From: Mya arenaria
Taxonomy: Eukaryota; Mollusca; Bivalvia; Myida; Myidae
DNA length: 64,000 bases
NCBI RefSeq assembly: GCF_026914265.1
Contig: NC_069136.1
Location: 49,708,381 to 49,772,380 of the forward strand
Direction of reading: 5' to 3'
Made by a program: the position numbers and the translations under genes. Under the pieces are notes generated by a model. That model was not told the origin of the DNA. It saw only the letters and a list, made by a program, of their open reading frames with translations, and did not search any database. Of this stretch, positions 87-47,877 are shown one piece after another (position 1 is the stretch's first letter; each line of letters begins with the position of its first letter).

Positions 87-171
87 CTTTGTCACTTTCT
101 TTGAAGTTATGTCTCATCACTGCCAGGAAGAATGGACTGGCATATAGGACACAGGTATGGTACCGCTTGGA
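87..171 (-). pseudogene. Kelch-like copy A, exon 2 (BTB, partial gene at left edge)
   Basis: This 85-bp exon has a good acceptor (TTGAGCAG) just above position 171. It encodes SKRYHTCVLYAS-PFFLAVMRHNF, the front of a BTB fold, and aligns codon for codon with exon 2 of copies B, C and D. Those copies read AAAG|GTAG at the donor; here it reads AAAG|CTAG, so the donor GT has become CT. Reading on gives a short extension and no usable join to the phase-1 exon 3 of the family. Exon 3 of this copy lies outside the window. The exon identity is strong; calling the copy inactive rests on the donor change alone. Confidence 0.7.
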
Positions 172-1204
172 CTGCTCAACAAAGGAAATACAACTTTCAA
201 ATGTAATTATCAATTTTAGGTTGGGTCAATCTTTGTTAAAGTTAAGGCTAATGGGTCCATTCTTTAATTTTCAACATAAGAAATAACATGTAAAATTCTC
301 ATTTACTTTCGAGATATAATACAGATCATAAGGGCTTTTCACTGGGCAAACGTTGGTGGCGAAGGCCAAACATTTTACGTTTGAAGGGTTAAAGTTTTAT
401 TTAGTTTTGACGAACGATCATTTCAATGGGTACAACATTACCCTAACAACATGTTTAGGTGTAACAAGGAGTATAGTCAAATTTATGAACAGACTTTTGG
501 TTAAAAAAGCATTTGCCTTTTTTTGGAAAAGTCTTTCGATAATATGGATCTGTTTTTGTGTCAAGATGTCCAATAAAATACCCAATCAACAATGTCTTAT
601 TGTTTCTTGTTGATATATTTTCAACAAAGAAAATATATTTAATAAAATAGGGAAAATAGTGAATTAAATTTACTTCATGGTAACAAATATTTTGTCAATT
701 AATGAATAAACCAGCACGAAGCCACATGGCATTGTTGACTAAAAAGACTTTAATTATTTTACATAAAAAACATGTTCTTCATGTAGAATTACCTTTTCCA
801 AAAATAAAATGCAAATATTTGAGCCAAAATCTTATATAAATCTTCTTTCGTAAAATTCACTTAACTCTTTATTACACTTTCATACTTTGCGAAGAATGTA
901 CGTATTATGCTTGCTAAATATTGAACCTAGAAACTAATTTAAACAAATTAGTCTAAGACTGTTAAACTTTGTGTATACATGTCATCTTTATCGTTTCCGT
1001 CTAATTATTTACTCGATATTTCAAACTTTGATTTTCAAAGTATGATGAACATAAACGTATTATAATAAATACAACTAAATATACTTTATATCTTTCAATA
1101 TTCAATAGTCCAGAACGTTTTTACAGACATGTTGTACAGTGATTCGTATGGTATTGAAGTTATGAATGTGAAACTAAATTTCCAAATTTTCGCTGCCACC
1201 TTAC

Positions 1205-1315
1205 CCATTGTCCATTTTTAACTGTAAAGTCGCAAAGGTCACTTTGTTCCTCTACCTGTTGCCTTAACAACGCCCTCATCGATATTCGGCTGTTTTTCCC
1301 CTCAACAAAGCACAT
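1205..1315 (-). CDS. Kelch-like copy A, exon 1 (start exon)
   Basis: The exon is 37 codons, from ATG (1315-1313) to TGG before donor GTAAGG. It encodes MCFVEGKNSRISMRALLRQQ and then VEEQSDLCDFTVKNGQW. Exon 1 of B, C and D has the same length, phase and LLxQQ-EQS-CxFxVK pattern. An acceptor TTTTCAG lies two bases before the ATG, and a conserved donor (TCGAAAGTACAG then GT) ends at 1567. This implies a 5' noncoding exon about 250 bp upstream, as in the other copies. No lesion is visible in this exon. Confidence 0.7.
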
Positions 1316-2485
1316 GTCTGAAAATTAAAATGGACGAAATCTAGTTCTTTTAAACTTCCTCAATCTATATACAGGGTAACAAATGAAAAAGAATTATAGA
1401 ATTTACTAAAAAACTCTTAACTTAATATACTCAAACTATATGAATGATATTAAAAAGTTTTATAATGTGACTTCGGTTTCAAAATCGATTCTTGGTTTAT
1501 ATTCAATGAAACAGTTTAGAAAGCTTACCGTGTGTGATGTTGATGGACATTTTCGTCACGAAAAACCTGTACTTTCGATTTGTGTTTTCAAAAAATATAC
1601 CCCGATAAACAGCAACTGCGTATGCGCACACTAATAGTTAGGCAAGAGTTGTGTTCCCTGATATTTCGAGTAACATGTCAAGTAAAACAACATTCTTTTC
1701 ATAGCAAAATATACATGGTTTGCTATTTTCTGAACTTGCAAAATAAACTTATCGGTTGAAGTCAGCTTGCATGCGTTCTGACATACAACTATGGTATCAA
1801 TTCCCCTTTATGCAGGTCAAACCAACTACAATCATCAATGATCATAAAACTATCGGTGCGGTTTAGTTAAATCAAATTGCTGTTGATTTTCCCAATAAAT
1901 TTGCATTTTTTCTGCAATATTAACTAGCTCTAAGCAATTGAATTTCTGTAAATATGTTATAAATGACACTATAAATAAATATATCACTGATATGTATCAA
2001 AACCAAGACAGGGTCATTTAAAATGGAACGTGGAAGTATAATTAAATGGGCATATAAAATACAGCGTTTTAAGTTCAAATCGTACTGTATTAATAATCAG
2101 CCATTTCTTTGTACAAATTATGGTCTAGAAGATATTTTATTGCATCTAATTACATTTTGTCCCTCTGTGTGGGGAGGGGGAGGGAATGTACACTAGCGTT
2201 GATACATTATGGTTTGCCAAACCTGTAGGGCTCAGGATATTCCTGAGATGGAAAATGACCCCCGTCCTAGTATATTTTCCTACAATACCGACACCACCTA
2301 GTCTGTAATATTTTCACTTGTCTGATATCTTTCACTGCCATTAGTCAAAATACATAAAAGTGCCTTAGTTATGGAGGGATAACCAGTCTCAAGTTTAAGT
2401 TATTATTTATCAGCATTTTAGAATACGTGTTTTATTCTTTTCTTAAGTAATACAAAGGATGTTAAACATTTTTTTCTCTTTCCAG

Positions 2486-2606
2486 GTAATAAATTGTTCA
2501 CAAAATAGACACTGTCACTAAAGCAGGTAATGACCAAAGCGAAGAGAAACTGATAAACTTACCATGGATGAAAACAGTGAAAGTGACAGTAGAAATCCTC
2601 TGACAG
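2486..2606 (+). CDS. Candidate first coding exon of an unknown gene
   Basis: A pyrimidine-rich tract and CAG acceptor (TTTTTCTCTTTCCAG) are followed by 78 bases without an in-frame ATG. Then comes ACCATGG and the short peptide MDENSESDSRNPLTG, split by a donor CAG|GTAAAC. The start context is Kozak-like, and both splice signals fit a 5' exon with a short acidic N-terminus. A degraded second copy lies at 3430-3515, so the exon predates a local duplication. No following exon was recognised in the window, so the gene cannot be named. It could also be a relic. Confidence 0.35.
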
Positions 2607-2645
2607 GTAAACAAACATGTATTGCACTTGTTCAAATTTTGTTAT

Positions 2646-3230
2646 TTAAGGAATGAATTTCGGGGTTGATGTCATTATCGGGGTATGAACGCAATTGGGC
2701 TGGTCTAAGTGTGTGGAGTACTCCACGCGTACTTTGTCCAGCCCAATTGCGTTCATATCCCCGATAATGACATCAACCCCGCAATCCATTCCTGATATTT
2801 ACACCAATAGTTCATTGTTTTATTCAAGAAACGTTAAACAAAAATTCATTTCATTTCGGATTACCTTTCAGTAATCATTTTTTACCCATTCTGTAAATAG
2901 GACGATCCGACTGTTACCGGAAACATTGTTTTTTAAATGACGTCACAATAACGCGGGAAAAGATCAATCACTAGAAAACACTTTTAAACGTAAAATTAAA
3001 ACACTTTTGGCAACACAACGTTTAAAATATAATAACTTAGCACTTTCTTAAATGTTGAATTATATTTTACGGGACCTGCTGACACAAAACAAACAAAAGC
3101 AAGATCAATAGTTTTCATGTATTATTGTTATGCGATGAATTGCGATCCGAACATATCCGAAGATGTTGCGTTCATCGATTGATGAACGCAATTGCCGAAA
3201 AGCAGTTCATTTAAGGAATGGAAGTTGAGG
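2646..3230 (+). repeat. Fold-back element family R3, copy 1
   Basis: Positions 2655-2795 form a long imperfect palindrome: the arm around GATGTCATTATCGGGGTATG is repeated inverted, meeting at a central AGTACTCC. The palindrome is followed by about 400 bp that ends in ATGAACGCAATTGCCG, echoing the hairpin arm. ATTTAAGGAATG occurs at both ends. A second copy lies inverted at 48785-49277 and shares both hairpin and body. Two copies in one window with matching ends indicate a non-autonomous mobile element. Its superfamily is unknown. Confidence 0.7.
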
Positions 3231-3429
3231 TGTAAATATATGGTTCTAAAGCCATCTATTAAGTTGTTTCATTAACATATTCTGGTTTTGCTTTGGGGGG
3301 TTTCCATTCTGAATATATGGAGGCCAGTTTTGTTTTTCAGACTTTCAGTTGGTGACCAGTATCTTTCGTATCTTCATATTTCATTCACATGAGCCTCTAT
3401 ATCAACTACATTCGTTAAAAGCATTTTAC

Positions 3430-3515
3430 GACCTAAATTTAATGATAAACCCACCATGGCTGACGACAGTGAACGTGAAAGTGGAAGTCTTAAAAAAACA
3501 TGTATTGCATGTTTG
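3430..3515 (+). pseudogene. Degenerate duplicate of the 2486-2606 exon
   Basis: The sequence CCACCATGGCTGACGACAG and the next 50 bases match the start exon at 2564 (ATGG-TGA--ACAGTGAA-GTGA pattern, then AAACATGTATTGCA). The CAG|GTAAAC donor seen in the first copy is replaced by TTAAAAAA, so this copy cannot splice in the same way. It lies just beyond the R3 element, so the two exon copies flank that insertion. Confidence 0.4.
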
Positions 3516-3539
3516 TGCAAATATTCTAACATGATCCAA

Positions 3540-6500
3540 AAGTCATCTAGTACTAGTAAATTGTTCTTATATTATATGTTCTGATATTTCCGGGGGCTAT
3601 TTCCATACTGAATATAGTGCAGTTGTCAGAGTTTCACGATGTAAAATCATAAAAAAGTAATTTAATTAAATAATTAGCAGCTTAGCGAACTAAAGCTAGA
3701 TATAAAATTGTGTTAGTTGATATAACAGATATCAGTCGATAAATCCACAATGTGCCTTTTGTAGAATATTTACCAAGACTAATGTTGGTCTTGAACTCTA
3801 AATCTTATTTTAAATGCATTTAAAATGAATGCAAATGTATTGTGGTTAACAACAGCAATAACAACAACAACAACAACCTTAACAGCATTGGTGATATCAT
3901 ATCGCTACAGCATGACAAAACACACAGTAAAAAAAATATGAGGGTATCAAGTTTATCAAATATAGTTATAAAATGTAATATTGGAATATCTTGGCGTGGA
4001 CAATAAAAAATCGTTGTTCATACATATAAAGGATTCAACATAAAGATGCACTCTTATTCCCAAATACGATTTATCACAATTAATACAATTGTTTTAATAT
4101 TCCAAAAAAGATGAAAACATGTCGAAAACAATGGTTTTTATAAAGGATACCGACTTTAATTTGAAACAAAGGTGCAGAAAACATGGTATTACTACCTTAT
4201 GAGACAATAGCATATCACAGTAAATCATTTAGCATTCACTAATCATTTGATATTTTTGCATTTTTAGCTATTAAATACACGGTTACAATCTTGTTATCAG
4301 TAATCATTATTTTTCATAAATGCATTATTTAGTAGGTAGTTAAAGGTATATCACTCCAAATTATGGTTGTTTTACATGTGTATGTATTGATTTTGGAAAA
4401 GAGTGTCACTTTAACAGTACATCCAGATATTCAACTACTATGTTGCAATATGAAACGTGTAAGTACTTGAAATATTGATGACTGCAAGATGGTGGTACAG
4501 GATGTACAGGTGAAAATATTCCGTATGTTTTTTTAATATATCATTACAAATATCTTGGTGAGAAAGTTCATGTTTAACGTTTGACAGTTGTAATAAATAA
4601 CAAACAATGTTCTCAATTTCTGAGTTGCAAGTTTTGATCAAAGATGCGTTGAATTTTTTTTAATGAAAGTGTACGAGGTTCTAGAGTAGTACAGTTTCAT
4701 GAATGGAACGATTTGCAAGAGGCTGAATATGTTTGAATTATTAATATTTAACAAAATCAGCACAATGATAAGATATTAAACAATGAGGTGAGAGAATGCT
4801 ACTGATGTTCAATACTTAAAAATATGAATTAATGGTGTCTGTGTTTAAAGTTTCATTAAAGTCTAGTCAGCATTTCCAAGCATGAAAGAACAATTATATA
4901 AATAGTTCAAACCCTTAGAAGTACAGCACTTTAGTAACAGTTTTCACAACCATTATAGAGACAGGTTCCCCTGTATTAAAACTAACATATTGATTCTTTA
5001 TGCAATTAGGTGCCTGTGTGACGAATTGGCAAATATTTAGTATAATTTAACCAAAGCCTTATCCACGAAAATTCCATCAGTAGGGCTTGTAAGATAAAGT
5101 TTGATTGGAACATTCAAAACTTGTGCATTACAGCAAACAGTAAGTCAATTATGTTACCTTTAGAAAAATCTAGGTGTAAAATAAACATTCGACAAAATTA
5201 GTCGTGATATATTTTAGGTAGTATAGTAATTAATACACCAAAGCTAGTTTTGCACCTTTGAATCATTGTAAACCAGTCCTTTATCATAATCAAGTCAAAA
5301 TCGTTTTTTTCCGGTTGATCAACTAATCATATAATATATAATGCAGGTTACGCCATCCTTATTTTATTTGTTTCCATGGGCCTTACCACCTTTTTTCAAG
5401 TAATAGGTAAAAAAAATATTATTGCGGTAAACTGGAGAACAACATTCCACAATAAAAGTAAAACCACCTACGCTATATGAACAATAAATGTGAGGTGCTT
5501 GTTTGCATTTTGGTGTTTTGGTTAGAACAATGCAAACTACACACTACTTTCCTTTAAAATAGGCTTTTAGACATATTGTTTAAACTAATGATGGCTGATC
5601 TCTAATAACATCTAAAATGTCAATGAATTATTTAGATTATGCTTTTGTTATTGTTTCTTCAGCTATTCAGAGTTCTGTTGTGGATAATTCCCAAATACTG
5701 TTATATAATTGATAAGAAATCCTGAAAGCTAGCAATTGACTAACAGCTTCGCAGTATGGGTCGGATTAAGACAATGCTCAATATTAGCTGTGTGTCGAAA
5801 TCCCTTTTATGTCCTCTTCAATGCTTGATAACTCTTGGACTATGTTAAGTGTAAAAGAAGTAATACTCATACATGCGTTATACATTTTTCATTATTGATA
5901 CTATTTGAATAAAATATCTTACAATTGAATGTTTACTAGCACTACAATCATCTGTGGTACAAATGTTTTTTGTCAATTTGAAGCTTCATAAATTGGGAAA
6001 GAGATTGAACTTTAGTATTGTCAGTATATTTGTTTTGCTGCAAGCTAAATGTCTGTCTGCATGGTTTGAATGTATACCTATAATGTCGGGAAAATCGTAA
6101 CATGGTCCACTCCGGAACGAACAATTCATTTTATATTGTAAACGCCCAAGCGTATTTAAGATTGAAAAAAAACTCATTTTCTGAAACAAATGTGCAAGAT
6201 TGTGCAACTTACCTTTTCTGGCTACAATTTGCCTCGGTATTGAAAGAACTTGCTCATTAAGTTCCTAACATCAAAGTCAATAGTCATAGTCAGAAGGAGT
6301 TGACTTATACGATATAATGTACATTTTTATTGTTCTGATGATTGTTACATCTGAGAGAAAGTCTGGCATTTTTTTTTCTTGAAAAAAAACTGTTGATCTT
6401 TCCAATCATAGTTCTGGCATATAATTCATGACATTTTCACACTAAAATATCACTACCTGTACGAGTTTACAATAAAAGCTAACATGAAATAAAATGACTT

Positions 6501-6670
6501 CATTGAATGTTTTACCCCAGCCAAGGGTCGTATGCTTCTTTTTGACGTACAGTTGTAACTTTTAACAAGCACTAAGCACCTGGGGCAATCCCGAAAGCCT
6601 GTATAGTTTCTTATTTATCACAAACTATTATAATCTGAACGTGCATACCTCAGATTCGTCTGAATACTGA
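3540..6670. other. Spacer without recognisable genes
   Basis: This is AT-rich DNA with a short (AAC)n run near 3850-3877. The only open frames are short ones under 75 codons, without domain features or splice context. Nothing else is recognisable here. Confidence 0.5.
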
Positions 6671-6674
6671 TGTG

Positions 6675-10506: not shown

Positions 10507-12246
10507 TTAGTCATAACCATGATAAATATCATCATAGCTATCATAATGGTATCCAATATCGACATTATCGTCAAAATCATCATGGATCCAGTCGCGACGT
10601 TTTCTTGATAAAGCGTACATACTGTTGTTTTGCCTTTCTCTAATTGTATTTTCGTCTCTGATCCGTGTACAATGCGGACACCTCAAATTGCATTTCAGTT
10701 GTAAGCGAGGGATCGCTATTTCCAGAATATTGCAAATGATTGATTTATCTACAGATTCATCTGGGAGAGGAATATGTTTCCATTCTATCTGTTTCGCACT
10801 GACCTTGTCCAGTTGATCCAATGTGTATTCCAAATGCTTGCTGACTATGGAGTGGTCGCCGTATTTATTTGTTGTATGAAAACGAATCCATTTATTCCCA
10901 ACAACTCTGACAGTACAAGCATCCTTTCTTTCCTTTCGAAAAGCTCGTAAAACTGAAACTGGCCTTTTAACGCGAGAATTTGTCCCTGGTACTATCACAC
11001 GGGTCTTCCTTAGACCTAAAATAGCGAATCCATCTTTAAAGGGAGTGACTTCATCATTGTAATCGAGATTGATATCGATATTTTCCATTTTGCATGACTG
11101 TTTGTCATAAATACAGAAAAAAATGGGGAATCTGGAGAAAAGGGCCACTAATTTGACTTCATTTACAACAAGTTTTACTTCAAACCCTACATTTAATGAA
11201 ATAATTTGCGTCAAAACTGTTTCCTCACTACACTCGCTTATTGCCCCCTAAGCAGAGTATCGGCCTCTGTGTTGGGTATGTTCCCTTTCTATTTACGATT
11301 TCATAATGTGTTATAGGACCTCTTGACACCGCCATTTGATGAAATCGTTGTTCCAGCTTACCTTGCATTGTTTCGTTTTCCGTTATTGTCGCTTGATCGT
11401 ATGAGACCGCGTAACATATTTTATCTGCTTTGTAAATACTTTTAAATGTTCCTTTTTGTGTGAAGTAACAAAACTTACTGAAGTGCAAGAAAACTTGTCG
11501 AGTACTGAAAAATCATGAAGACGAATTACACATTCTTTAAATGTCTTCTGCACCAGGCAAAGAATGGTTTCACCGGGAGCTAATGCAAACATTTTTGTGA
11601 ACTGATAGTGAGGGTTTCCTTCAAGTTTATACCATCTGTCCCTACCGTAGTCGAAAACCCAGAAATCACCATCTATATTTGGCTGGTTAGTGATACATAC
11701 ATTTAGATTTTTTTTTCAAATGAGGTGTGTAGGTTTTCAAAGTATTTGTTCTCTTTTGCCTTTTCCAACACACTAGCAGTTACTTGCGGTAGTTCTATGC
11801 TTGCAACGTCTTTGTCTAGTTGGGTTTCCTCTGTTCAGGTGAGTGCTCTACCCACCTTATGATGAATTCAAACTTCACATCTGCAGTAACATATGACAAG
11901 GTTTTATCTGAAAACATATGTTCAAGCGTGTCATCAGTGATTGTTAGTAAATGATTCCCACCAAATAATTCTGGCAAATGTTATCCGATGTACTTTGTCA
12001 ATGCAGGAATTTCAAAATCAAAAATAATGCTGAGATGGAGTAGATTTTCTACGTTTTCTTCATCCACTGTGGTCTCATTGTTGATCCAGTTTACTAAGAA
12101 CGCCTTCAACTTCGGTATCAATAAAAACTCGGCCAAATGCATCACGGCGGAAACATTGTCTATGGTCAAGTAGGGAAATTGCCCGTACAAGAACATCATT
12201 GCCATGTCGATGGATTCTGGAGAGCCTAGTTTCAACTCGAGAAAGC
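10507..12246 (-). pseudogene. Kelch-like copy B, exon 3 (disrupted)
   Basis: The exon follows acceptor TTTTCAG at 12247-12249. It encodes the BTB remainder (LELKLGSPESIDMAMMFLYG), the start of BACK, then Kelch-type propeller sequence and a tail with RCPHC. In the same frame as intact copy E, the reading stops where E has a Gln codon (CAA to TAA, near 11980). One base is then missing at the QRKPK-LD equivalent, and there is another shift at the G-run near 11255. The last frame (10507-11214) is open and carries MENIDINLDYNDEVTPFKDG, two CxxC cysteines (CPHC) and an Asp/Tyr/His-rich end. In an intact relative this would be a BTB-BACK-Kelch substrate adaptor for a CUL3 ubiquitin ligase. This copy cannot make that protein. 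Confidence 0.85.
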
Positions 12247-12746: not shown

Positions 12747-12831
12747 CTTTTGTTTTTTCATCGAAGTTATTTCTCATCACTGCCTGGACGAAAGGACTGA
12801 CACACACGACACAGTCATGGTAACGCTTGTT
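12747..12831 (-). pseudogene. Kelch-like copy B, exon 2
   Basis: This is an 85-bp exon between acceptor TTAACAG and donor AAAAG|GTAGAC. It encodes NKRYHDCVVCVSPFVQAVMR and NNFDEKTK, ending in phase 1. HDCVVCVSPFVQAVM corresponds to the H-D-V-x-L core and second helix of a BTB domain. No lesion lies in this exon. Confidence 0.75.
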
Positions 12832-13408: not shown

Positions 13409-13519
13409 CCAGTTTCCTTGTTTCACTTTGAAGTTACAAATTTCACTTTGTTCCTTCAATTGCTGCCATAGCAACGCTTCGGTTGACACAGATTCATATA
13501 TCTCCTCATCAAAGTCCAT
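13409..13519 (-). pseudogene. Kelch-like copy B, exon 1
   Basis: The exon is 37 codons beginning ATGGACTTTGATGAG (MDFDEEIYESVSTEALLWQQ) and ending KVKQGNW before donor GTAATG. An acceptor (CTTGTAG) sits two bases before the ATG, and a conserved upstream donor at 13742 marks a predicted 5' noncoding exon. Confidence 0.75.
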
Positions 13520-15470: not shown

Positions 15471-15844
15471 GGTGATGTCATAACATTGTTTTACTGCTTT
15501 TGAAGAGAAACACATGTTATAAATATATTATCACATTTGTGTCCATTGTTGTTGTTTTTTAAATATCAACTTGTTGCACATAATGATAATGCTTGGTAGA
15601 GTGCGCTAAGTATCAATCTGTGCAACTTGTTTAACACTTTCATTTAACATTTATGTCTTATCTTCTATTTAGCATTGTCATAATATGGACCCGAAACTTC
15701 ATAATGGATTACTTTCACAAATTGCAATTGGTTCGAGTTCTTGGATCAAATTCAGTTATTGTTGCTGAAAGTACATGAACTGTATAAGGTCAATAAATCC
15801 AGTAAGAATTGACATGACTACACTGCTAAATGTAAAAAGCCCGG

Positions 15845-16475
15845 ACACAAACATGTGTACTATGACCTTTAAATGTCAGATATGACCTTGACCTTTAAGG
15901 TATTGACCAGGGTCAAGATCACTGAACACCTTCTCAATAAGGACAGCATTTGTACCACTTAATATGGTAATCCATCAATGAATAAGTAAGTTATAGCGCG
16001 GACATGAGCATGTGTATTCTGACCTTTAAATGTCTCATGTGACCTGACCTTTGAGGTATGGACCCGGGTTAAGGTCACTGCACATCGTCTCAACGAGTAC
16101 AACATTTGTACTAAATAATAAATTAATCCATCGAAGCATAAGTAAGTTATAGCGCGGACACGAGCATGTGTACTCTGACCTTTAAATGTCTCGTGTGACC
16201 TTGACCTTTGAGGTATGGACCCGGGTCAAGGTCACTGCACATCGTTTCAATAAGGACAACATTTGTACCAAATAATATGGTAATGCATCAATGCATAAGT
16301 AAGTTATAGCGCGGACACGAGCATGTGTACTCTGACCTTTAAATGTCTCATGTGACCTTGACCTTTGAAGTATGGACCCGTGTCATAGTAATTGCACATC
16401 GTCTCAATGAGGACAACATTTGAACTAAGTAAAATGGTAATCTATCAAAGCATATGTAAGTTATAACCCGGACAC
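15845..16475 (+). repeat. Tandem array, about 158-bp unit, four copies
   Basis: The segment TGTGTACTCTGACCTTTAAA recurs near 15853, 16010, 16168 and 16326. It is followed each time by GTGACCTTGACCTTTGAGGT, a GGTCAAGGTCACTGCAC block and AAGTAAGTTATAGCGCGGAC. The first and last units are the most diverged. Each unit contains the palindromic pair GACCCGGGTC. Confidence 0.9.
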
Positions 16476-16584
16476 GAAATGTTACAGCCAGACGGACATA
16501 CGGACGGACAGACAGATAGACAGACGGACGGACGAAGGGCATTCCTATAATCCCCTTCCAACTCCGTGGCGGGGGATTTATTAG

Positions 16585-19298: not shown

Positions 19299-19376
19299 AA
19301 AATAGCGAATCTATCTGTGAAGGGACTGACTTCATCATTGTATTCGAGATTGATGTCGATATTTTCCATTTTTCAT
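19299..19376 (-). pseudogene. Kelch-like relic (fragment of exon 3)
   Basis: The minus strand reads MENIDINLEYNDEVSPFTDR and then FAIF. This matches the propeller segment of copy B (MENIDINLDYNDEVTPFKDG) and of D almost residue for residue. Homology fades within about 30 codons on either side. The flanks resemble sequence downstream of copies D and E (for example CATTACAGCCTGTCA against CATTACAGTCTGTCA), so this is the remnant of an additional gene copy. Confidence 0.75.
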
Positions 19377-20259: not shown

Positions 20260-22720
20260 TGATTTTGTATTTCTCCGTTGGCTCTGTCACTTCAATGACG
20301 AGGCAAGACAACCGTGTTCAACGCAGATAATAATGTAGGTTTGTTCATTTGCCACTAATGGAAAATAATGAGGACTTTAACCCTCCTTCTTTACCGCTTA
20401 AATTTGAACTGGAAACCTGAATACCATTTTTAAAAGGATTACCATGTATTGGTTTTTAAACATTGGCTTTTTCGTGCCAGCTTTTATATAACCAAAATCC
20501 ATTCACGACAAAGGCGTTGCAGCATTAAAGAAGCCCCAACATAGTAGGGTTCGTAAGAACGTTATATTTAAGAAGTGCGTTGGAGCTTTTTCTGGCATAA
20601 TTGAAACATTTATTTTGGGTCTTGAATGCCTATTTTGAAACTAGTACTCTCAAATGAAGAATCAATAAAACAAATATAAATATAACTTTTAACAAAGAAA
20701 GAGAAATGGAAAATGACAATACCGCTATCATTTGAGTCTATTTAAATTAGGACTGATTATCCCATGTTTATAAAATTATATACATGTATATCATTGCACG
20801 CAATCTACATTCATTCAGTCCATGCTAAAATAACACGACAATAATGGGAGAACAACTTAATATTTCATTTCTGACCTTTTAAATGATCTTATTGTCGTCT
20901 TTTAAGTAAAAGCGTAAAATAATTACCAAAGCGCCCAGTAAACACAGTTTATTTTTAATGTTATACTTCTTGAAATATTGCTGTTGTATCGCTTAACAGC
21001 CTTACAAACTCATACAAAAATAACTTCAGTCCAGTGATGTATGAATACAATGTACAATATAGTGACTGTTTTCGCTGATAGATATTATTTTCAAGGGATA
21101 TTTAAGTGGTTTTGATGAATACTTGCTTTTTCGCCGTTTTACAGGTTTGTTCTTTAAAGTTTAATGTTTGTTTTACACCACATTCGAAATGTTTTTGTAA
21201 CACAGAAACCACTGTCACAGTCCATATGCATTATGTAAATTATCATAAAATCAAATTCATATATACATAAATCCAACAGTTAAAATAATGTAAAACAATT
21301 ATGGAAACTACAGGTACACGTCAAGAAGCTTTACATTTAACAAAAATCATGTTCATTAGCACAAGGGTCAAGGCAAAACAAACCCAAAACAAGAGACAAT
21401 TCCTCAACACAAAATACATGAACAACTTACCAACTATCGTCCATGGTTAAGGTTTATGTCACCGCATTCGCACAGTCAGTGAAATTAGGTCAGAATACAC
21501 TGTAGGTTCAAACTAATCATTTAGGTTTGTAAGAAACTAACAGGCTAACGTCAGGGAAAACACATAAATATTTACATAACAATTATGAAAAAACATGAAA
21601 GGTAACGTTTACATAGCATTAACATAACACGTCACGTGATAACTGTTTAACACAAGTAGCACAAGTGTTGCTCGTTCAAAACTTTCTTTCTGAAAGCACT
21701 CCCACAAAAGTGGCCTTCTCCATGTCTTTATATTTGACTGAATATTCTTATTTTTACACTCGCAAAACCCCAATAATCAAGTTTTGACCATTTAACTACA
21801 TTTAAATCACATTGTCAGTACGTTTAGCAATAAGTTAAAACATTCTACTCAACTCTTGGAAGGTCACATGTAGACGAAACTTACACTCGTTTTGACTACC
21901 AAGGCCCGATTGAGGTTTTGCCGAAGAATATAAGCCAACATATATTTTGGTATTTGTCATCGGCGTAATTTTCTAAATGGTTGAGGAGATCGTATTCCGG
22001 CCCAGTGTGATTGTTTAAAGCAAGTTGATGTGATTTGTGTTGTTTTTCTTCGACGGTTCTATCTCTTACATTTTATACAAGTTTGTGTAACATAATATTT
22101 TGATAATAATACAATAATACCTGTTTTATGTATGATCTCTGAGATCCAGAGTGGTTTAATCGATGCTTCTTTAAAACGTGTTGGATAGACTTCGTGTTTA
22201 CAGTCTGCATCAGAACCATGTCATTTATGGTGCAAAATGTATCAAAGTTAATTAATAATTGCCGGCGTTGATCATTTAACAACTAATATAACGTCATACA
22301 AACTAATAACAAAAAATATTGACCGGCTTAAAACCAACAGAACATGTATGGGACATACTCAAAACGCGTCCCTCTCCATACACAGAAAGACAAAGGAATA
22401 CCTAGTACAGACACGTATTGAGAATCGTGCAAGAATCCACATTCACAAATCAGTTGGTTTAGCACATTCAGAACTAGATGCCGAAATGAAAGCTCGTGGT
22501 GGATATCCTCGGTATTTACATATGCTCGTGTTTGTTTACACTGTATTCATTCAATTCGTGCAGTGATCTTCACATTTTAATGGCTTGAATGTTATTTATT
22601 GTTACTTGCTATTTAATATTATACACTTGTTTAGTAGTGTAATGTTTCAAACAGTATGAACTGATATCCTTTTCATTTTGTGGCTTATTTGTTTTTTTAG
22701 GAATGACATCCGATTAGTCA
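20260..22720. repeat. Duplicated spacer segment, copy 1
   Basis: It aligns along its length and in the same order with 28840-31010. Shared landmarks include GTAGGTTTGTTCA, CACTAATGGAAAA, TTAGGACTGATTATCCCATG, the CACAGTCAGTGAAATT block, and TATGGGACA(T/C)ACTCAAAA near the end. It lies directly downstream of copy C. Confidence 0.75.
22325..22560 (+). pseudogene. Tc1/mariner-type transposase fragment
   Basis: The plus frame starting near 22325 reads GLKPTEHVWDILKTRPSPYT. This matches the C-terminal L-N-P-x-E-x-x-W-D-x-L-K motif of Tc1-like DDE transposases, where the E is the third catalytic acid. The frame is broken by several stops downstream. A related fragment lies at 30590-30770. Confidence 0.6.
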
Positions 22721-24533
22721 TAAATGTTATAATAATCATCATCCCTATCGAACACGTTTCTTAGGTAATTGTAATCATCGTCGTGATCATAGCAATCATC
22801 ATTGTAATCATAGTTATCATCGTAATCATAGTTATAATCGTCATGGTCGTTCCAGTCGCTAGGTACACCTAGCTGGGTGTATCTACGAGCGTTTACAGTG
22901 AATAAATTGGCTCTACACTCTTCGGCTTTGATTCGATCACAGTGTGGACACTTCACATTGCATTTCAGCTTGTACCGTGGAATCTCTATTTCTTGAATAT
23001 TTCGAATGATAGAATCATCTACATTGTCGTCGGGGAGAGGAATCTGCTTCCATTTTGCATCGTTCGCACTTACCTTTCCCAATTCATCCGATGTATACTC
23101 CATCAGCTTGAAGAAATCAGAGCGTTCGTGAGATCTCCTTTTTATTCGATAACGAACCCATTTGTTCCTAACAACAACAAGAGTACTTAAATCAGTTTTT
23201 TCATACGGGTAGGTTTCATAAACTGAAAATATTCTTTCATTTCGAAGACCTGTTTGTGATTGTATAAAACGAATTTTCTTTTGGTCACAGATAACGAAAC
23301 CATCTTTAAATGGACTCACTTCATCATGGCATTTAAGCTCTATATCGAGAATTTTCATTTTGCAGGAATGTTGGTCGTATATGCAAAAAAACTTCTGAAC
23401 TTTGGAAAAAAGCGCTATTAATTTGGCATCATTTACAACAAGTCTTACTTCAAAATCTATATTCATTGACAGAAGTGGCGTTAAAATTGTTTCGTTACTA
23501 CTTCCGCTGATTACCCCCCAAAAGGATCGTCGGTCTTTGAGTCAGCATTCTAGAAGCATTAGTCATATTTGTAGGACTTCTTGACGTCGACATTCGATGG
23601 GTTCGTTGTGCCTTATGACTAAGGCCTTGTACTCTTTCCTTTTTCTTTATTAGGACCGGATATTTTGAGACTACATAACAGACTTTGTCGGATATGTAAA
23701 TATTAACAAGTTTCCCTATTTTTTGATCATGTGAAGTGATAAGACTTACTAAATTGTAAGTTAACTCGTCAAGATCTAAACAATCATGAAGGCGAATAAA
23801 ACATTTCTCTGATATCTTCTCCACCACGCAAAGAGTGGATTTCGCGTAGGTGAATGTAAAGGCTCTTTCTAAGTGATTGCAAGTGCTTTTAATCCTAAAC
23901 CATCTTTCCTGGGCTAGGTCAAAAACCCAGAAAAACCATGATCAAGGTCGTTCTGAGTGATCAATACATTTTGCATTTTTGCCACAGTTTCAGTTTCCGT
24001 CTCATATAGATTTTGTAAGTCTTCAAAGTGTTTATCCCCTTTTGCTTTTTCAATCAAACCAACAGTTACTTCCGAGAGTTCTATGCCTGCAATTATTTTG
24101 TCTAGCTTTGGTTTCCTCTGTTCAGGGGAGTGCTCTACCCACCTAATCATAAATTCAAACCTGACATCTGCGTTAACATATGACAATGTTGCATCTGAGA
24201 ACATGTTTTCAAGCGTGTCAGCCGTGATTGTCAGTAACTGATTGCCGCCTAACAATTCTGGCAAATGTTGCCTGATGTATTTTGTCAATGCAAGCATTTT
24301 AAAATCAAAGATACTGCTGAGATGGAGTAGATTTTCTATGTTTTCTTCATCCATCTTGGTATCCTTTCTGATCCAGTTTACACAGAACGCCTTCAGATTT
24401 GGTATCAACAAAAATTCGGCCAGGTGCATCACGGCGGATACATTGTCTATGGTCAACATGGGAAATTGCCCGTAGAAGAACATCATTACCATGTCGATGG
24501 ACTCTGGAGAGCCTAGTTTCAATTCTACAAAAC
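22714..24533 (-). pseudogene. Kelch-like copy C, exon 3 (two frameshifts)
   Basis: After acceptor TTTTTTCAG it encodes the rest of BTB (VELKLGSPESIDMVMMFFYG), a complete BACK domain, and LQNLYETETETVAKMQNVLI. Reading breaks near 23930 at a GGTTTTTC run, where E reads HFWVFDLAKERW. It continues in a second frame (FWVFDLAQERWFRIKS to LGGNQRK) and breaks again at a run of six G near 23515, where E has five. The third frame (22714-23466) is open and ends with KCNVKCPHC and an unusual tail of about 45 residues made largely of Asp, Tyr and Asn. Repairing two short indels would restore one frame, so this is either a young pseudogene or contains sequencing errors at homopolymers. Confidence 0.85.
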
Positions 24534-24958: not shown

Positions 24959-25043
24959 CTTTGGCTTTTTCATTGAAGTTATTCCTCATCATTGCCTGGA
25001 TGAATGGACTGACACACAAAACACAGTCATGGTAACGCTTGGT
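24959..25043 (-). CDS. Kelch-like copy C, exon 2
   Basis: This 85-bp exon, between TTTAAACAG and AAAG|GTAGGC, encodes TKRYHDCVLCVSPFIQAMMR and NNFNEKAK. Frame and splice sites are intact. Confidence 0.75.
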
Positions 25044-25917: not shown

Positions 25918-26028
25918 CCAGAGTCCTTGTTTCACTGTGAAGTTGCAATAGTTACTTTGTTCTTTCACTTGCTGCCGTAGCAGCTCCCCTATGGCCACTG
26001 GCCTATATATCATCTCATTAAAGTCCAT
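25918..26028 (-). CDS. Kelch-like copy C, exon 1
   Basis: The exon is 37 codons, MDFNEMIYRPVAIGELLRQQ then VKEQSNYCNFTVKQGLW, before donor GTAAGG. The ATG lies two bases after a TTGTAG acceptor. A conserved donor (CGAAAGTGCAG then GTATTTCC) ending at 26265 marks the predicted 5' noncoding exon. Confidence 0.75.
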
Positions 26029-31115: not shown

Positions 31116-31322
31116 CCATTTTGTGTCTTCCATATAAGCACAGGGGTTTACTGTCTATTTAGCCACATGCGATTTCCTCGTGCATTGGTTTTGGCCATTT
31201 TTCACACTGATGCATTTAATTGTCCAACTTATTTTAAAAGTAATAGCGTTTTATATTGGTATCATTATGTTTATTTTGTGTTCCAAATTTGGTGGAGAAA
31301 TAAACATAATAATGAAGATTTA

Positions 31323-31808
31323 CACCGGGGATGAGCAAAAAAGTCACGTGACCACAAATGCAAACGCCAGTAGTATTTTGGCTCGATTGATCGTTAATCA
31401 AGGAAAGTTTCTTATCGATATTTTTGTTATACGCGAGAGTTCGTTCAAATGACATAGCGCAAAAAAGAATGCATTGTTTTGTCTTTCGATCGGTGTATTG
31501 GTCACCATTCATGTCTGCATAGTTTCCGAGAACACTTCGATACAAATTGTGTCCATGAATGCAAACGCACGTAGGTAGTGTTAAAATGTCACATATTTTG
31601 ATAAATTGCCACAATTTTTCAATTGTTTTGACTTTCAGTTGTTCAATAATTGCTTTTATTTGTTTTATGAATATTTTGTGCGATGCAATTTGTACAAACA
31701 AATGCATTTTCTGAAGTATTTAAATTTGGCAAACGCACGTTGGCATTTTCATAAGGCAAACGTACGTAGTCTACCTAAAATGACAAACGCACGTAGGCAT
31801 CTTATATA
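31323..31808. repeat. Long inverted repeat, left arm
   Basis: It begins CACCGGGGATGAGC and runs to GGCATCTTATA. The arm is nearly identical to the reverse complement of 34143-34602 (about 2-3% difference in the best part). The motif CAAACG(C/T)ACGTAGG occurs four times near its inner end. Both arms keep an open frame of about 120 codons containing CVCIHGHN and GVCICGHVTF. No target duplication was found. Confidence 0.85.
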
Positions 31809-34142: not shown

Positions 34143-34602
34143 ATTATAAGATGCCTACGTGCGTTTGCCATTTTAGGTAGACTACGTACGTTTGCCAAAT
34201 TTGAAATACTTCAGAAATTGCATTTTTGTACATATTGCATCGCACAAAGTATTCATAAAACAATTAAAAACAATTATTGAACAACTGAAAAACAAACATT
34301 TGAATAAAATGTGGCAATTTATTAAAATATGTGACATTTTAACACTACCTACGTGCGTTTGCATTCATGGGCACAATTTGTATCGAAGTGTTCTCGGAAA
34401 CTATGCAGACATGAATGGTGAACAATACACCGATCGAAAGACAAAACAATGCATTCTTTTTTGTGCTTTGTCATTTGAACGAACTCTCGCGTATAACAAA
34501 AATATCGATAAGAAACTTACCTTGATTGACGATCAATCGAGCCAAAATACTACTGGCGTTTGCATTTGTGGTCACGTGACTTTTTTTGCTCATCCCCGGT
34601 GA
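34143..34602. repeat. Long inverted repeat, right arm
   Basis: This is the inverted counterpart of 31323-31808, ending ...CTCATCCCCGGTG. The plus frame 34192-34602 is open through the arm. It differs from the left-arm frame mainly by conservative changes (I/V, I/L, D/E, S/T), but too few sites differ to prove selection. Confidence 0.85.
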
Positions 34603-34739
34603 AATTACGAACTTAATTATTCCTCTAGCCATTTATTTCAATATTCCCCCCCAAAAAATAATGAACAGTTTAAATTCAGCTTCTCCAGTGATAAGTTATT
34701 ACCAAAGAGCTTGCTTTAAATACAAGATAAAAGAAACCA

Positions 34740-37560: not shown

Positions 37561-37561
37561 A

Positions 37562-38527
37562 TTAATAGTCAATACTGTGAGTATAATCCCCATTGCTTTC
37601 GTCATGGTAAAAACGACCGGGAAGGCCACAGTTACGACGTTCTCTTGACAAAGCGTTCATAACGTTGTGTTTCTTGTATCTAATTGTATTTTCGTCTTTG
37701 ATCCGTGTACAATGCGGACACCTCAAATTGCATTTCAGTTGTAAGCGAGGGATCGCTATTTCCAGAATATTGCAAATGATTGATTCATCTACTGAGACAT
37801 CGGGGAGAGGAATATGTTTCCATTCTACATATTTAACATTGACCTTGTCCAGTTCATCCATTGTATAGTCCAACTGCTTGCTGTCTATGGAGTGGTCGCC
37901 GTATTTATTTGTTGTACGAAAACGAACCCATTTGTTTGCGACAACTCTGAAAGTACAACCAACCTTCCTTTCCTTTCGAAAAGCTCCACAAACTACAACT
38001 GGCCTTTTAACGCGAGAAATTGTCCCTGAAACAATCAAACGAGTCTTCATTTCACCAAAAATCGCGAATCCGTCTTTAAAGGGACTGACTTCATCATTGT
38101 CATCGAGACTGATATCGATATTTTCCAATGTGCATGACTGTGTGTCGTAAATAATTTGGGGTTTCTTGAAAAAAGGGCTACTAATTTGGCTTCATTTACA
38201 ACAAATTTTACTTTAAAACTAACATTCAACGAAAGAAGTGGCGTCAAAACTGTTTCTTCACTACATTTGCTGATTGTCCCAGTGTTGGCACCTCGAAATC
38301 AAAGATGCTGCTGAGATGGAGTAGCTTTTCTACGCTTTCTTCATCCAACTTGGTATTATTGTTGATCCAGTCTATACAAAACGCCTTCAACTTCGGTATC
38401 AACAAAAACTCGGCAAGGTGCATCACGGCGGATACATTGTCTATGGTCAACTTGGAAAATTGCCCGTATAAGAACATTATTACCATGTCGATGGACTCTG
38501 GAGAGCCTAATTTCATTTCTACAAACC
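37562..38527 (-). pseudogene. Kelch-like copy D, exon 3 (internal deletion, chimeric)
   Basis: The 5' part (VEMKLGSPESIDMVIMFLYG to LLHLSSIFDFEVPTL) matches copy E, including the diagnostic NTKLDEESVEKLL. At about 38285 it jumps directly to sequence equivalent to copy E position 46913. About 720 bp covering most of BACK and the first propeller blades are missing, and the frame is lost. The 3' part (MENIDISLDDNDEVSPFKDG, ISRVKRPV, CRCPHC-type, KDENTIRYKKHN) matches copy B instead. The product cannot form a BTB-BACK-Kelch protein. Confidence 0.85.
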
Positions 38528-39142: not shown

Positions 39143-39225
39143 CTTTGGCTTTTTCATCGAAGTTATTCCTCTTCATGGCCTCGACGAATGGACTGTCACG
39201 CACGACAGTCATGGTAACGCTTGGA
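39143..39225 (-). pseudogene. Kelch-like copy D, exon 2 (2-bp deletion)
   Basis: This exon is 83 bp instead of 85. After SKRYHDC two bases are missing (GACTGTCGTGCGTG against GACTGTGTCGTGTGTG), which creates a TGA. The original frame resumes as SPFVEAMKRNNFDEKAK. Splice sites are intact. Confidence 0.8.
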
Positions 39226-42635: not shown

Positions 42636-42746
42636 CAATAGTCCTTGTTTCACTGTGAAGTTGCAAACGACACTTTGTTCTTTCAATTGCTGTAGTAGCA
42701 ACTCCCCAGTGGACACTGGCCTATATATTTTCTTATCAAAGTCCAT
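42636..42746 (-). pseudogene. Kelch-like copy D, exon 1
   Basis: The exon is 37 codons, MDFDKKIYRPVSTGELLLQQ then LKEQSVVCNFTVKQGLL, before donor GTAAGG. It is closer to copy C (IYRP-V--GELL) than to B. The acceptor TTGTAG precedes the ATG by two bases. The conserved upstream donor ends at 42989. Confidence 0.75.
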
Positions 42747-43191
42747 GACTACAAGCAAAAATATTTATACAAAGTGAAATATTTTCGTTGTATGCAATAG
42801 ATCGTTCAATATGGAATCTACCAATGGCTCAATAGATATTATCGATTATAGTGTAAATATTTAAAAAAAAATGGTAGAACAATCAGTTAATTAATATAAT
42901 ATACAAAGATAAAGCAATCGTACCTTGGTGTATGTATTGTGTTAATGGTCGCTAACAAAATAAAGTTATGTTTCATTCACTGAAATACCTGTACTTTCGA
43001 TTTACACATTTTCGGAAAATGTATATTCCAATATAAATTATCTAGTTAATTGTGTTATCTCCCATGTCTCTATGTGTCTCAAGTATTGAACAAATTACAT
43101 GAAGGTGTGACGTCATTCTGCTTCGTCTGCTTGTTTAAGAAGATCATGTCTATAAACAAGTCTGCTAAAACACGTTCTATACAACTCGATA

Positions 43192-44020
43192 CTGGTTGAG
43201 AAGCAGTTTCCGACAGTTTTTATACGTTTTTATTGAATTATTTATACGTGTTTAAATACCTACTAAAATTGTTCACATTTTAGATAACTACAGCTCAAGC
43301 TGCTATTGTCGATATATTTTTCTCATGTGTGACGTCACACATAGTGTATCTAATAGGGGCGCAAAGAGGGTACTTACACTGTTCTGATTAGCTTGTGATG
43401 AGAAGCAGTTTCCGACAAATCGAATGCGGGGCGGATTTATGTGCCTATTGTGTGTTTTTATTATCCGTTTATTTGATGTACTAAATATAAGACTTTAATA
43501 AGAGAAATATTATTTAATTTTTCAGGATTTACGAAAAATTTAAACCTTAAAATATACGACAGTCAATTCATACTCGAAATTAGGCAGACACTGAATATCA
43601 ATGATATTTTGATTCATTTCTGATATAAACTTTTGTTTGTATACATTTAAGTGAATGTATGTGTGAAACAAGCATGACACCAGTGTTCACAAATATGTAC
43701 ACACTGATCATCGTTTGTGTAAGTCAATTAAGGAAAACCTTGTAGCTATTCATAGATATGCAAATTAGGTTCACACGCATGCGCATTACGCGGCGCGTGC
43801 CGATCCCCCACGTGCAAGTTTGTGTACAAAATGATAAATAAACATTAAACATTAAATAATAATAAAAGTTACTTACGTGTCTCGGTAAGAATTTCAACTT
43901 TTGATTACCTAGTTACCACATTGTTGAATTACAGTACCTTCTTTATGAAGATCTAAAGAAAGTACGCGAAAAAGCGATTTGTCGGAAACTGCTTGCCGTC
44001 GGAAACTGCTTCTCAACCAG
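43192..44020. mobile_element. TA-flanked inverted-repeat transposon (829 bp)
   Basis: The ends CTGGTTGAGAAGCAGTTTCC and GGAAACTGCTTCTCAACCAG are perfect inverted repeats flanked by TA on both sides. Additional GAAGCAGTTTCCGAC copies lie at about 43400 and, inverted, at about 43979. Copy C has the uninterrupted sequence at the equivalent place (CACGATGCAAGTGTGAAGCG against CTCGATA...TACAGGGGAGAAGCG), which acts as an empty site. A TA duplication suggests the Tc1/mariner group. It has no coding capacity. Confidence 0.88.
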
Positions 44021-44648
44021 TACAGGGGAGAAGCGTTAATGGGTAGTATTCAATGGGAGACGTGTTAATGGGTGTTATTCAATATCGGATTATTTGGATC
44101 TAAAAACGCTGTGACTAATCAAGTCAATGATGAATGAACATAAGATTTCCTAAAGCGTCAAAAATATTTGTTTACACTAACTTGACTGATTCTACTTTTT
44201 GACGTAGTGTGGGTTTTTTTTCGTAATTACTTTAAAGATGTACATTGTTTTTAAGTGAACGTGTTAAAATTTGACCATTTTATACAATGGTGATATACCA
44301 TGATATAGGTTGGTTGGGTACAGATTCCAGGTTCGCAAAACAAAAGTTATGCCTATCTACTATCCTTTTTTGGAGGTATTAGTGGAAACAAACACAAATT
44401 TTGACCTAAATCTCCTAAATTGAATACCATCCAATATTTTGGAAACAGTGAAGGAAACACAAAAAGAGTCTTCGAAAAATTTTATATCGTATTTGCGGAA
44501 ACTTTATGTAAATCTGTATACATGTGAAGGACTAAGGGCTTTTAAAGTGAAAGTTAAACTAAGTATGTGTCCATGCATTGAATACCCCAGCAATTTGCGT
44601 TTATGAATAAAATCGTTTTTTTGCATCACAGAAAGCGACCAGTCTTTA

Positions 44649-44938
44649 TGCACCAGTCAATTGTAACCACGGCCCTCCCAGGTCCGGGGAATAGCGGGGA
44701 CTTTGACTTTCGGTCCAGTCAAGCCCGGCTAATATCCCCGTCCTGTTGGGACGAACAGATGGTAAAATCCTCGCCAAATGCCCCCGTACCCCAGGGACCC
44801 TCGGTAAGGCCCATTCCCCGCTATATTTAAAGCGAAGGCAAAACCACCCCAAAGGTAAAAACACGGCCCATTTTCACTGCTATCCCCGGTATATCCCTGG
44901 ACGTGGGGGGGGGGGCGTGGTTACAATTGACTGATGCA
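44649..44938. mobile_element. MITE with TTA duplication (Harbinger-like)
   Basis: Its 23-base ends, TGCACCAGTCAATTGTAACC... and ...GGTTACAATTGACTGATGCA, are inverted with one mismatch. TTA flanks both sides (44646-44648, 44939-44941), as expected for PIF/Harbinger. The 290-bp body is GC-rich and partly self-complementary. A shortened relative lies at 62786-62905. Confidence 0.85.
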
Positions 44939-45239
44939 TTATAAACGGTCACTCAATAACTGCATCAATTCGCAAATGCTTTTATTCATTTTGCCGTAGG
45001 GTGGTCAGGCTAACCGTAGCTCTACTTTAAAATAAATGTTTGAACTATCAATTAGACCATAGAAGAAGTATCCCATTTATTAGAATATTAAAAAAAAATG
45101 AAATCACAGCACATAACAGTTTTATAACATTTGCACTTAGTATTCACATAACAGTTACACAAAACAGTAACAAAACAGCTGCATAAAATTTATGTAACAT
45201 GTACATAACACTTATGAAAAACACACGAAAAACACATTG

Positions 45240-45480
45240 TGGTGTCCGGTTAGCGCAGTATTTAGCGTACCCGTTTCTCACTTGGGTGACCTGGTTTCGA
45301 TTCCCGGTCTGGGCGCATTTGAGTTTGGTTTGTGGTCACCAAGCCGGATAAGTGGGTTTCCATTGGGTAATCCGTTTTTCCCCACATCACAAGAGTACAC
45401 GCTCGCGTAACATTGTGCCTACGTAAGTTTTAAATATAATGTTGTCATAACTTGTTTCACAATCGTTGTAAAATAAATAA
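45240..45480 (+). repeat. tRNA-derived SINE
   Basis: The head 45241-45317 folds like a tRNA: GTGTCC pairs with GGGCGC, TTAGCGCAGTATTTAGCG resembles an A box, CCCG-loop-TGGG stands for the anticodon arm, and GGTTTCGATTCCCGG is a B box. An unrelated body follows (TTTGGTTTGTGGTCACC ...), and it ends in an A/T-rich tail (TTGTAAAATAAATAAG). The imperfect acceptor and anticodon stems argue against a functional tRNA. Confidence 0.8.
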
Positions 45481-46149
45481 GTTTAACTAAACTAAAAACT
45501 CTTGAAAATTAAGGTCATCACTAGTAATACAAAGGCATATTATTTATCGTGTTGTTATGATTTGTTGTTTTTTCTTTTGTTCCCAACAAATTTTGAGGGT
45601 GATATCACATTCCTAGTGTTCTGTAAACGGCTTTCCAACATACCGTCGTCTGAAGATTTATCATTGTAAGAAATATACTTTCTTTGATCGTTAGCACTTT
45701 AAGCATACTATACGTTCTCGCGTGGGAATCACATTTGTGTTTGTTCGTTAGACGTTCCTTCAAATAACTCCGCCGTTTTAACATTTTAGCATCAGAAGTA
45801 TCCGTATTATTACAGTATTTTCATTGCCGTCCGCTCATACCAAAATACTCTAAATAAAATGACCATGTGTCAACGTTATTAAAGTTCGTACTGGACATAC
45901 TCGGTATCTGTTCGTATGTGTTGAAACTGAATTGTTTAATAGTGTTTGTTATAAAACCCATTCAAACGTAATTGTTCGATTTTTGCTTCAACCATCACTT
46001 GTCCATCGCTTGAATGCTAATTATTCGTACGTGGTGATGCAAACTTCACAATTATTATTATATAGTGAAGTACATGTAGTTTTACTATAAATGTTATGCA
46101 ATTATATCACTTTTATTTTGTGACTTAACTTATTTTGAGGAGTGACATC

Positions 46150-46288
46150 CGATAAATCATAACTGTGTTAATAGTCCTCATCGTACATGTTGCTGTGGTA
46201 ATTGTTGTCATCATCGTGATCGTTTTAATCATTTTCGTAATCAAAGTCATCGTCGTTCAAGTTGCTGATCACTCCTTTCTGGGTGTAT
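46150..46288 (-). pseudogene. Out-of-frame Asp-rich tail of copy E
   Basis: Beyond the stop of copy E, another frame reads TLKYTQKGVISNLNDDDFDY and then DHDDDNNYHSNMYDEDY, with one TAA inside. It matches the Asp/Tyr tail of copy C (RRYTQLGVPSDWNDHDDYNY). A one-base shift at the A-run near 46300 separates it from the main frame. Confidence 0.7.
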
Positions 46289-47877
46289 TTAAGCGTTTTT
46301 TTCAGTTTTAATTAACTCCTCGTCTCTGATCCGTTCACAGTGTGGACACTTAATATTGCATTTAAGTTTGGACCGTGGAATGTCCATTTCTTGAATATTT
46401 CGAACGATAGAATTACCAACATTGTCTTCAGGGAGAGGTATCGGCTTCCATTTTGCGTCGTTCACATTTACCTTTCCCAGTTCATCCGCTGTATACTCCA
46501 ATGGCTCGAAGGCATCAACGCTTTCGGAAACTTTCTTTAATTTCCGAAAACGAACCCATTTATTTCTAACAACTACAAGAATAAATAAATAAATTTTGTC
46601 ATACGGGCAGGATTCATAAACCGAAAATATTCTTTCATTTCGAAGACCTGTTTGTGATTGTATAAAACGGATTTTCTTTCGGTCATAGATAACGAACCCA
46701 TCTTTAAATGGATTGACTTCATCATTGCGTTCGAGATTTAAATCGATGTTTTTTATTTTGCAAGAACGTTGGTCGTAAATGCAAAAAAAATTATGACCTG
46801 TGGAAAAAAGCGCTATTAATTTGGAATCATTCACAACAAGTTGTATATCAAAATCTACACTCACTGATAGAAGTGGCGTTAAAATTGTTTCGTTACTATG
46901 TTCGCAGATTGCCCCCAAAAAGATCGTCGCTATATGACGCATTTTTCTCCAATGCGTCCAACACGACATTTGAGGTGGTCGTTGTGCATTATTACTAAGG
47001 TCTTGTACTTTGTTCACCTTATAGTTTGAGACTGCATAACAGACTTTGTCGGATATGTAAATATTATTTAACTTCCTTACTCTCCTATCATGTGAAGTAA
47101 TACGATTTACAGAAATATTAGGTAACTCGGCAAGTTCTAAACAATCATGAAGGCGAATTACACATTTATCTGATGACTTCTCCACCAGGCAAAGAATGGA
47201 TTCCGCGTAGGTGAATGTTAAGGCTCTATCGAAGTTAATAGGGGTGCCTTTCAACCTAAACCATCTTTCCTTGGCTAGGTCGAAAACCCAGAAATGACCA
47301 AGATCTTTCGGGGTGATCAATACATTTTGCAGTTTTGTCACAGTTTGTGTTTCCGTCTCATATAAAGTTTGTAGGTCTTTTAAGTGTTTATCCCCTTTTG
47401 CTTTTTCAATCAAACCAGCCGCTACTTCCGAGAGCTCTATGCCTGCAATTATTTTGTCTAGCTTCGGTTTCCTCTGTTCTGGAGAGTGCTTTACCCATCT
47501 CATAATGAACTCAAACCTCACATCTGTCAATGTTTCATCTGACAACATTTTTTCAAGTGTGTCAGCCGTGATTGTCAGTAACTGATTCCCACCAAATAGT
47601 TCTGGCAAATGTTGTCTAATATACTTAGTCAGTGTTGGCACCTCGAAATCAAAGATACTGCTGAGATGGAGTAGCTTTTCTACGCTTTCTTCATCCAACT
47701 TGGTCTTATTGTTGATCCAGTCTATACAGAACGCCATCAGATTCGTTATCAACAAAAACTCGGCCAGGGTCATCACGGCAAATACATTGTCCATTGTCAA
47801 TTTGGGAAACTGTCCGTACAAGAACATCATCACCATGTCTATGGATTCTGGAGATCCTTGTTTCAACTCTAGATAAC
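46289..47877 (-). CDS. Kelch-like copy E, exon 3 (BTB end, BACK, Kelch-type region), open
   Basis: This is the only copy with an uninterrupted long exon: 525 codons from the first internal Met, plus a short in-frame lead (YLEL) after acceptor TTTTCAG. Residues 1-70 are the second half of BTB (GSPESIDMVMMFLYGQFPKL). About 65-175 is BACK (LLHLSSIFDFEVPTLTKYIR, RWVKHSPEQRKPKLD). From about 190 the HFWVFDLAKERWFRLKG strand pattern and later VVVRNKWVRF suggest a degenerate Kelch propeller. KCNIKCPHC lies near the end. Relatives are CUL3 adaptor proteins. Exons 1 and 2 were not found upstream: intron homology ends near 48350, where an R1 repeat begins. The N-terminal half of BTB is therefore missing and expression is doubtful. 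Confidence 0.75.

Follow-up and report, generated by a model that had tools for sequence, protein, structure and literature searches.

Does a group of related genes that are all broken, each in its own way, represent a cluster that is dying out? The question is raised by 64,000 nucleotides of the soft-shell clam Mya arenaria (contig NC_069136.1, C15 below; C15:49708381-49772380, the window hereafter), in which five copies, A to E, of a three-exon gene encoding BTB and BACK domains lie on the minus strand. A first-pass annotation had described a five-copy array of Kelch-like genes, every member of which carried a lesion, and had suggested either a dying cluster or one kept as non-protein loci. 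The five copies and their different lesions are present as described. The array, however, does not end with them: it comprises at least 13 loci over ~188 kb (C15:49568758-49756288, matches grouped by place) as well as a 78-bp fragment, and is cut by the window edge. It contains open copies, broken copies and mosaics. The description of a family in which all is damaged, and with it the idea of a dying cluster, thus fits A to E at their end of the array but not the whole, where three of the 13 loci are open. We consider it very probable that ordinary birth-and-death turnover of a gene family, with exchange between copies, is seen here and not a wholly dead cluster.

The search of the genome (1,216,080,610 bases in 18 contigs) with exon 3 of copy E as the query gave 68 matches, and 80 of 88 candidates were scored, so that locus counts are lower bounds. 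Window copies compared with each other were ~80-86% identical over stretches of 600-1100 bp (lowest E-value 0), and the array is therefore not a chance find. When 60 kb around the window were examined, copies F, G and H, as well as exon 3 of copy A, were found beyond the lower edge, and no family copy was found in the 20 kb above the upper edge. Of the 13 array loci, three are open across all three exons and ten are damaged (A to E, F, H, L019, L023 and L039). Outside the window, F has one frameshift and H, L019 and L039 several each, and L023 was counted as damaged since the start of its exon 3 was not found; for L019, L023 and L039, exons 1 and 2 were looked for within ~1.5 kb upstream of each match. 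With 10 of 13 loci damaged, the probability that five named loci are all damaged is 252/1287 (~0.2, by our own arithmetic), so finding all five broken is by itself unsurprising, and a window edge can make an array seem wholly dead. Away from the array, family matches lie on C15 (~26.03 Mb), C4 (~63.01 Mb), C8 (~69.84-69.88 Mb) and C2. The family pairs L020/L028, L021/L035 and L030/L031, whose members lie either on different chromosomes (C15 and C4) or on C2 at a distance of 2.7 Mb, are 96-99% identical and may be recent duplications or uncollapsed haplotypes.

A genome search for an intact parent copy did return intact members. L016, L017 and L018 (copy G) give open three-exon models with GT-AG introns, of 637, 624 and 626 residues, respectively, if exon 1 is spliced at the donor that follows Trp and exon 2 at its first acceptor (alternative sites exist); L016 lies on the opposite strand. 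The introns after exons 1 and 2 are in phase 0 and phase 1, respectively. The BTB domain is encoded by exons 1 and 2 and the start of exon 3, and the remainder of exon 3 codes for BACK and for a C-terminal region that changes fast. A frameshift-tolerant alignment placed no frameshift and no stop in any of seven open controls (L016, L017, G, L020, L026, L029 and L030), and the same alignment placed lesions in A, B, C, D, E, F, H, L019 and L039.

Within the window, the lesions differ in kind from copy to copy (Table 1). Copy A has lost the exon-2 donor: 11 of the 12 exon 2s caught by a pattern in 16 sources have GT and A alone has CT (the pattern missed those of L026, L027, L030 and H). Its exon 3, which lies outside the window (-969 to -2592, counted from the window start), has three frameshifts. 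An alternative GT lies 15 nt 3' of the lost donor in the same phase, but rescue by this cryptic donor is moot given the damage in exon 3. In copy B, the Gln codon reported as a stop is an in-frame TAA at 11983, and the indels are frameshifts near 11818, 11705 (a 19-bp loss), 11478 and 11251. Copy C has single-base frameshifts at ~23934 and ~23515, at short T and G runs, the first between BACK and the C-terminal region, with no internal stop in its C-terminal part. The possibility that exon 3 of B and C contains an intron was considered (in B, GTAAGT and TTAG in matching phase) and rejected, as the same stretch is open coding sequence in L016, L017 and G. B and C both carry +1 at one short G run, which is absent from the 17 other aligned members that cover the run (D does not); since the flanks of C resemble E there, a parallel change would be as likely as inheritance. 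Copy D combines the 2-bp exon loss with the reported loss of about 720 bp, which measures 715 bp against E and 769 bp against C (at 38282/38281), and lacks a further 7 bp after 38153 that the first-pass annotation did not mention. Copy E has a single frameshift at ~46291, near its end, which cuts off the tail, and neither exon 1 nor exon 2 was found from its break to 20 kb past the window. Introns are retained, as B, C and D keep exons 1 to 3 with introns and E keeps part of intron 2. We infer that the broken copies would make no working protein.

Damage in C and E had been noted as complementary and the two as neighbours, and on paper exons 1 and 2 of C could be joined with exon 3 of E into one gene. 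The order of the copies makes this barely conceivable. D stands between the two with exons 1 and 2 of its own, and transcription would run from E towards C, so that the exons of C cannot precede that of E in one transcript unless trans-splicing or a rearranged order is invoked.

The timing of the damage was explored through the codon positions at which the copies changed, by parsimony against open relatives on terminal branches. In the BTB-BACK part, changes at positions 1, 2 and 3 numbered 9, 6 and 24 in C, 17, 10 and 37 in E, 21, 17 and 35 in B (sister C) and 12, 2 and 15 in D (sister B), compared with 16, 7 and 35 in the open gene L016 and 22, 14 and 29 in the open gene L017. The third-position excess over positions 1 and 2 was 3.5 in C, 2.9 in E, 2.3 or 6.4 in D and 2.0 or 2.5 in B (the two values depending on the sister chosen), against 3.1 and 1.8 in L016 and L017, and pairwise w in this part was 0.15-0.39 among B to E. 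B to E thus look to have changed in the manner of protein genes over most of the time since they separated, and the death of the broken copies looks recent, because broken and open branches show similar codon patterns. The indels agree with this. Introns and flanks show 74 gap openings per 581 mismatches (pairwise rows pooled by hand, with copies shared between rows), whereas indels between copies are nearly absent from the C-terminal part. At the intron rate, a rough neutral expectation is ~16 indels for the 127 private changes of C and ~23 for the 184 of E, and the frameshifts seen (two and one, respectively) are far fewer. Retention of the damaged copies as non-protein loci, for instance as sources of antisense or regulatory RNA, could explain why all five window copies are damaged and yet similar over long stretches. 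We find it very improbable, as the similarity tracks codon structure in the BTB-BACK part while introns diverge freely with many indels, and as open copies are present in the array.

Copies B and D are mosaics. Trees of the BTB-BACK part place D beside E (0.90), near C; in those of the last part, B and D group together (1.00), nearest to G (0.91), and C groups with E (0.99), so the two topologies disagree. Along exon 3, the sliding identity of B is C/L017-like up to about base 430-500 and then comes closer to G, and that of D changes from C/E-like to B-like exactly at the large loss. The site tests gave 57:7 on the left and 81:77 on the right for B (p 4.6e-8), and 14:2 and 33:110 for D (p 6e-7). 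Since the switch to B-like sequence coincides with the loss, and given the site tests, we infer that the large loss in D is an unequal-exchange joint, or a loss at such a joint, in preference to a simple deletion.

Several points weigh against a reading in terms of turnover with exchange. The mosaic controls were not all flat (E p 0.02, L017 0.06, C 0.07, L016 0.85), and the right half of B is itself split 81:77 between C/L017-type and G-type sites; it thus stands for a lineage near G and is not a copy of G. The C-terminal part cannot be used to date the deaths: changes at positions 1, 2 and 3 there were 17, 21 and 16 in C, without bias, but they were equally flat in the open gene L016 (45, 23 and 30; 0.97). 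For this reason, neither neutrality nor diversifying selection is claimed from the flat C-terminal changes between C and E. Positive selection was not shown, as w was below 1 for parts a and c in the pairs computed; values above 1 in part b and the linker come from short stretches with wide intervals. The life or death of each copy was, moreover, judged from sequence alone, and each of the lesions in C (two), F (one) and L028 (one) affects a single base within or beside a short homopolymer run and could be an error typical of long-read assembly.

The last point leads to an explanation that we consider unlikely, namely that C (and F) are intact genes and their frameshifts residual assembly errors at homopolymer runs. 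The lesions of C are +/-1 changes at short T and G runs in a copy that is otherwise open, with exons 1 and 2 and splice sites intact; the only lesion of F is at a T run, and that of L028 at an A run by comparison with L020, to which it is 98.4% identical. According to its published account, the Mya arenaria reference (1.22 Gb in 17 phased scaffolds) was built from PacBio and Hi-C data and polished with 10x reads; the account also names six tissues for RNA-seq (PMC10663159). Against this explanation, whole exons are free of lesions in 7/7 open members, two unrelated long open frames stand in the same window (54984-56261 and 61507-62571), B carries the +1 at the same G run as C, and copies that are 10-20% different should be polished by short reads. 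In near-identical pairs, gap openings per mismatch were 2/28, 5/54, 16/88 and 16/42, figures that point neither way. There is also a slim chance, in our view, that C yields a shortened protein ending just after BACK, a natural BTB-BACK-only protein. Its exons 1 and 2 and BTB-BACK part are open and would splice correctly, the first frameshift comes after BACK, and the codon bias on its branch is strong in BTB-BACK and absent beyond. However, the C-terminal part of L016 lacks the bias as well, and that of C is still without internal stops, which suggests that any truncation is recent.

Homology of intron 2 of E to D stops at ~48240, shortly before a dispersed repeat that starts at 48286 and is present in at least 39 other places at 93-95% identity (40 of 9164 first-look candidates were scored), and the arrival of this repeat may have caused the loss of the 5' exons of E. 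An inverted pair of ~480 bp with 84% identity has one member near copy A (2644-3121) and the other upstream of E (48791-49270).

Taken together, tandem open and broken members (3 versus 10) are of different ages by the trees, and trees and mosaic tests point to exchange among them. In the turnover that we favor, new copies would arise by duplication and by exchange between copies, the latter yielding mosaics such as B and D; some copies would remain open, and others would later lose their function through point lesions, through deletion at a mosaic joint or through loss of 5' exons beside a dispersed repeat. The claim of an all-dead cluster then becomes a testable case of gene turnover, in which open, freshly broken and mosaic copies stand in one array and one could measure how fast the copies of a ubiquitin-adaptor-like family are duplicated, exchanged and lost in a bivalve. 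That the array is a diversity-making system, with BTB-BACK kept alike by exchange, a fast-diverging clam adaptor domain of unrecognised fold, and broken copies such as B, C and D donating C-terminal sequence to open copies, appears improbable. A literature search on Kelch/BTB tandem expansion in bivalves, with subscription journals mostly outside its scope, did not return this array.

All nine open exon 3s matched BACK (PF07707), and scores exceeded the cut-off in those members for which tables were available. The C-terminal half of BTB (PF00651) was matched in all nine at E up to 1; L018 and L016 passed the curated cut-off, and L026, L027, L030 and E did not. The scan took exon 3 alone, and the first half of PF00651 is encoded in exons 1 and 2. 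No Pfam Kelch model matched any of the nine at E up to 1. The family profile matched KLHL11 (3i3n, E 6.8e-11), gigaxonin (3hve, E 2e-8), KLHL3 and others in PDB over the BTB-BACK part only, with no Kelch match beyond position 173 at E up to 1. The C-terminal region (~390 aa) ends in a C-x3-C-x2-C stretch (KC-x3-CPHC, conserved in open members) followed by an acidic, Tyr-rich tail, and stretch and tail had no Pfam match. A low-confidence AlphaFold model of E (mean predicted local distance difference test score 41, predicted template modeling score 0.25) leaves a beta-rich C-terminal fold possible. We thus regard the family as BTB-BACK genes that are laid out like KLHL genes but end in a C-terminal region of no recognised kind, and the name Kelch is unproven for them. 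The open copies are probably working adaptor genes, presumably for Cullin-3 ubiquitin ligases, as judged from BTB-BACK alone. The unrecognised C-terminal region is the more interesting point.

Table 1. Features of the gene family and the repeat beside copy E, in window coordinates
Feature	Position	Strand	Remarks
Copy A exon 1	1205..1315	-	open; donor GTAAGG; placed by tblastn, alignment and motif
Copy A exon 2	87..171	-	CT at 86-85 where donor GT expected
Copy B exon 1	13409..13519	-	placed by tblastn and alignment
Copy B exon 2	12747..12831	-	placed by tblastn and alignment
Copy B exon 3	10507..12246	-	one stop, four frameshifts; mosaic
Fragment, 78 bp	19299..19376	-	C-terminal region of a B/D-type copy; 91% identity to B
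Copy C exon 1	25918..26028	-	open, splice site intact
Copy C exon 2	24959..25043	-	open, splice sites intact
Copy C exon 3	22714..24533	-	BTB-BACK part open (214-aa frame)
Copy D exon 1	42636..42746	-	placed by tblastn and alignment
Copy D exon 2	39143..39225	-	2-bp loss within 39216-39201
Copy D exon 3	37562..38527	-	5' part C/E-like, 3' part B-like
Copy E exon 3	46289..47877	-	open up to stop at 46289-46291, detached tail beyond
Dispersed repeat, ~479 bp	48286..48764		just outside the end of the remaining intron 2 of E

Other features were observed in the window. Of the two unrelated open frames, both on the plus strand, the one at 54984-56261 (425 aa) encodes ankyrin repeats with a sub-threshold SOCS-box match, and the one at 61507-62571 (354 aa) encodes EGF/laminin-type repeats with a hydrophobic end, MEGF-like by look. 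Between C and D, an inverted repeat of ~425 bp with 94% identity (31318-31740 and 34184-34605) surrounds ~2.4 kb and looks like a foldback-type insertion. Tandem repeat arrays are found at 53425-54552, 15838-16515 and 57366-57890, with units of ~166, 157 and 25 bp, respectively.

F-box and MATH-BTB genes of nematodes and plants are birth-and-death families of ubiquitin-ligase adaptors. As in those families, the array is tandem, open and broken copies are mixed, and a conserved BTB is joined to a faster-changing target part; unlike there, the C-terminal region corresponds to neither MATH nor an F-box partner domain, divergence is lower in BTB-BACK than in the C-terminal part, and segments are exchanged between copies. 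The order of BTB and then BACK is that of KLHL Cullin-3 adaptors such as KLHL11 and gigaxonin, which differ from this family in the Kelch repeat that neither Pfam nor PDB detected here. With unprocessed pseudogenes, finally, the broken copies share retained introns, several kinds of lesions and open paralogues as neighbors, but in contrast to ordinary ones several copies are mosaic, and the large loss of D lies at a mosaic joint.

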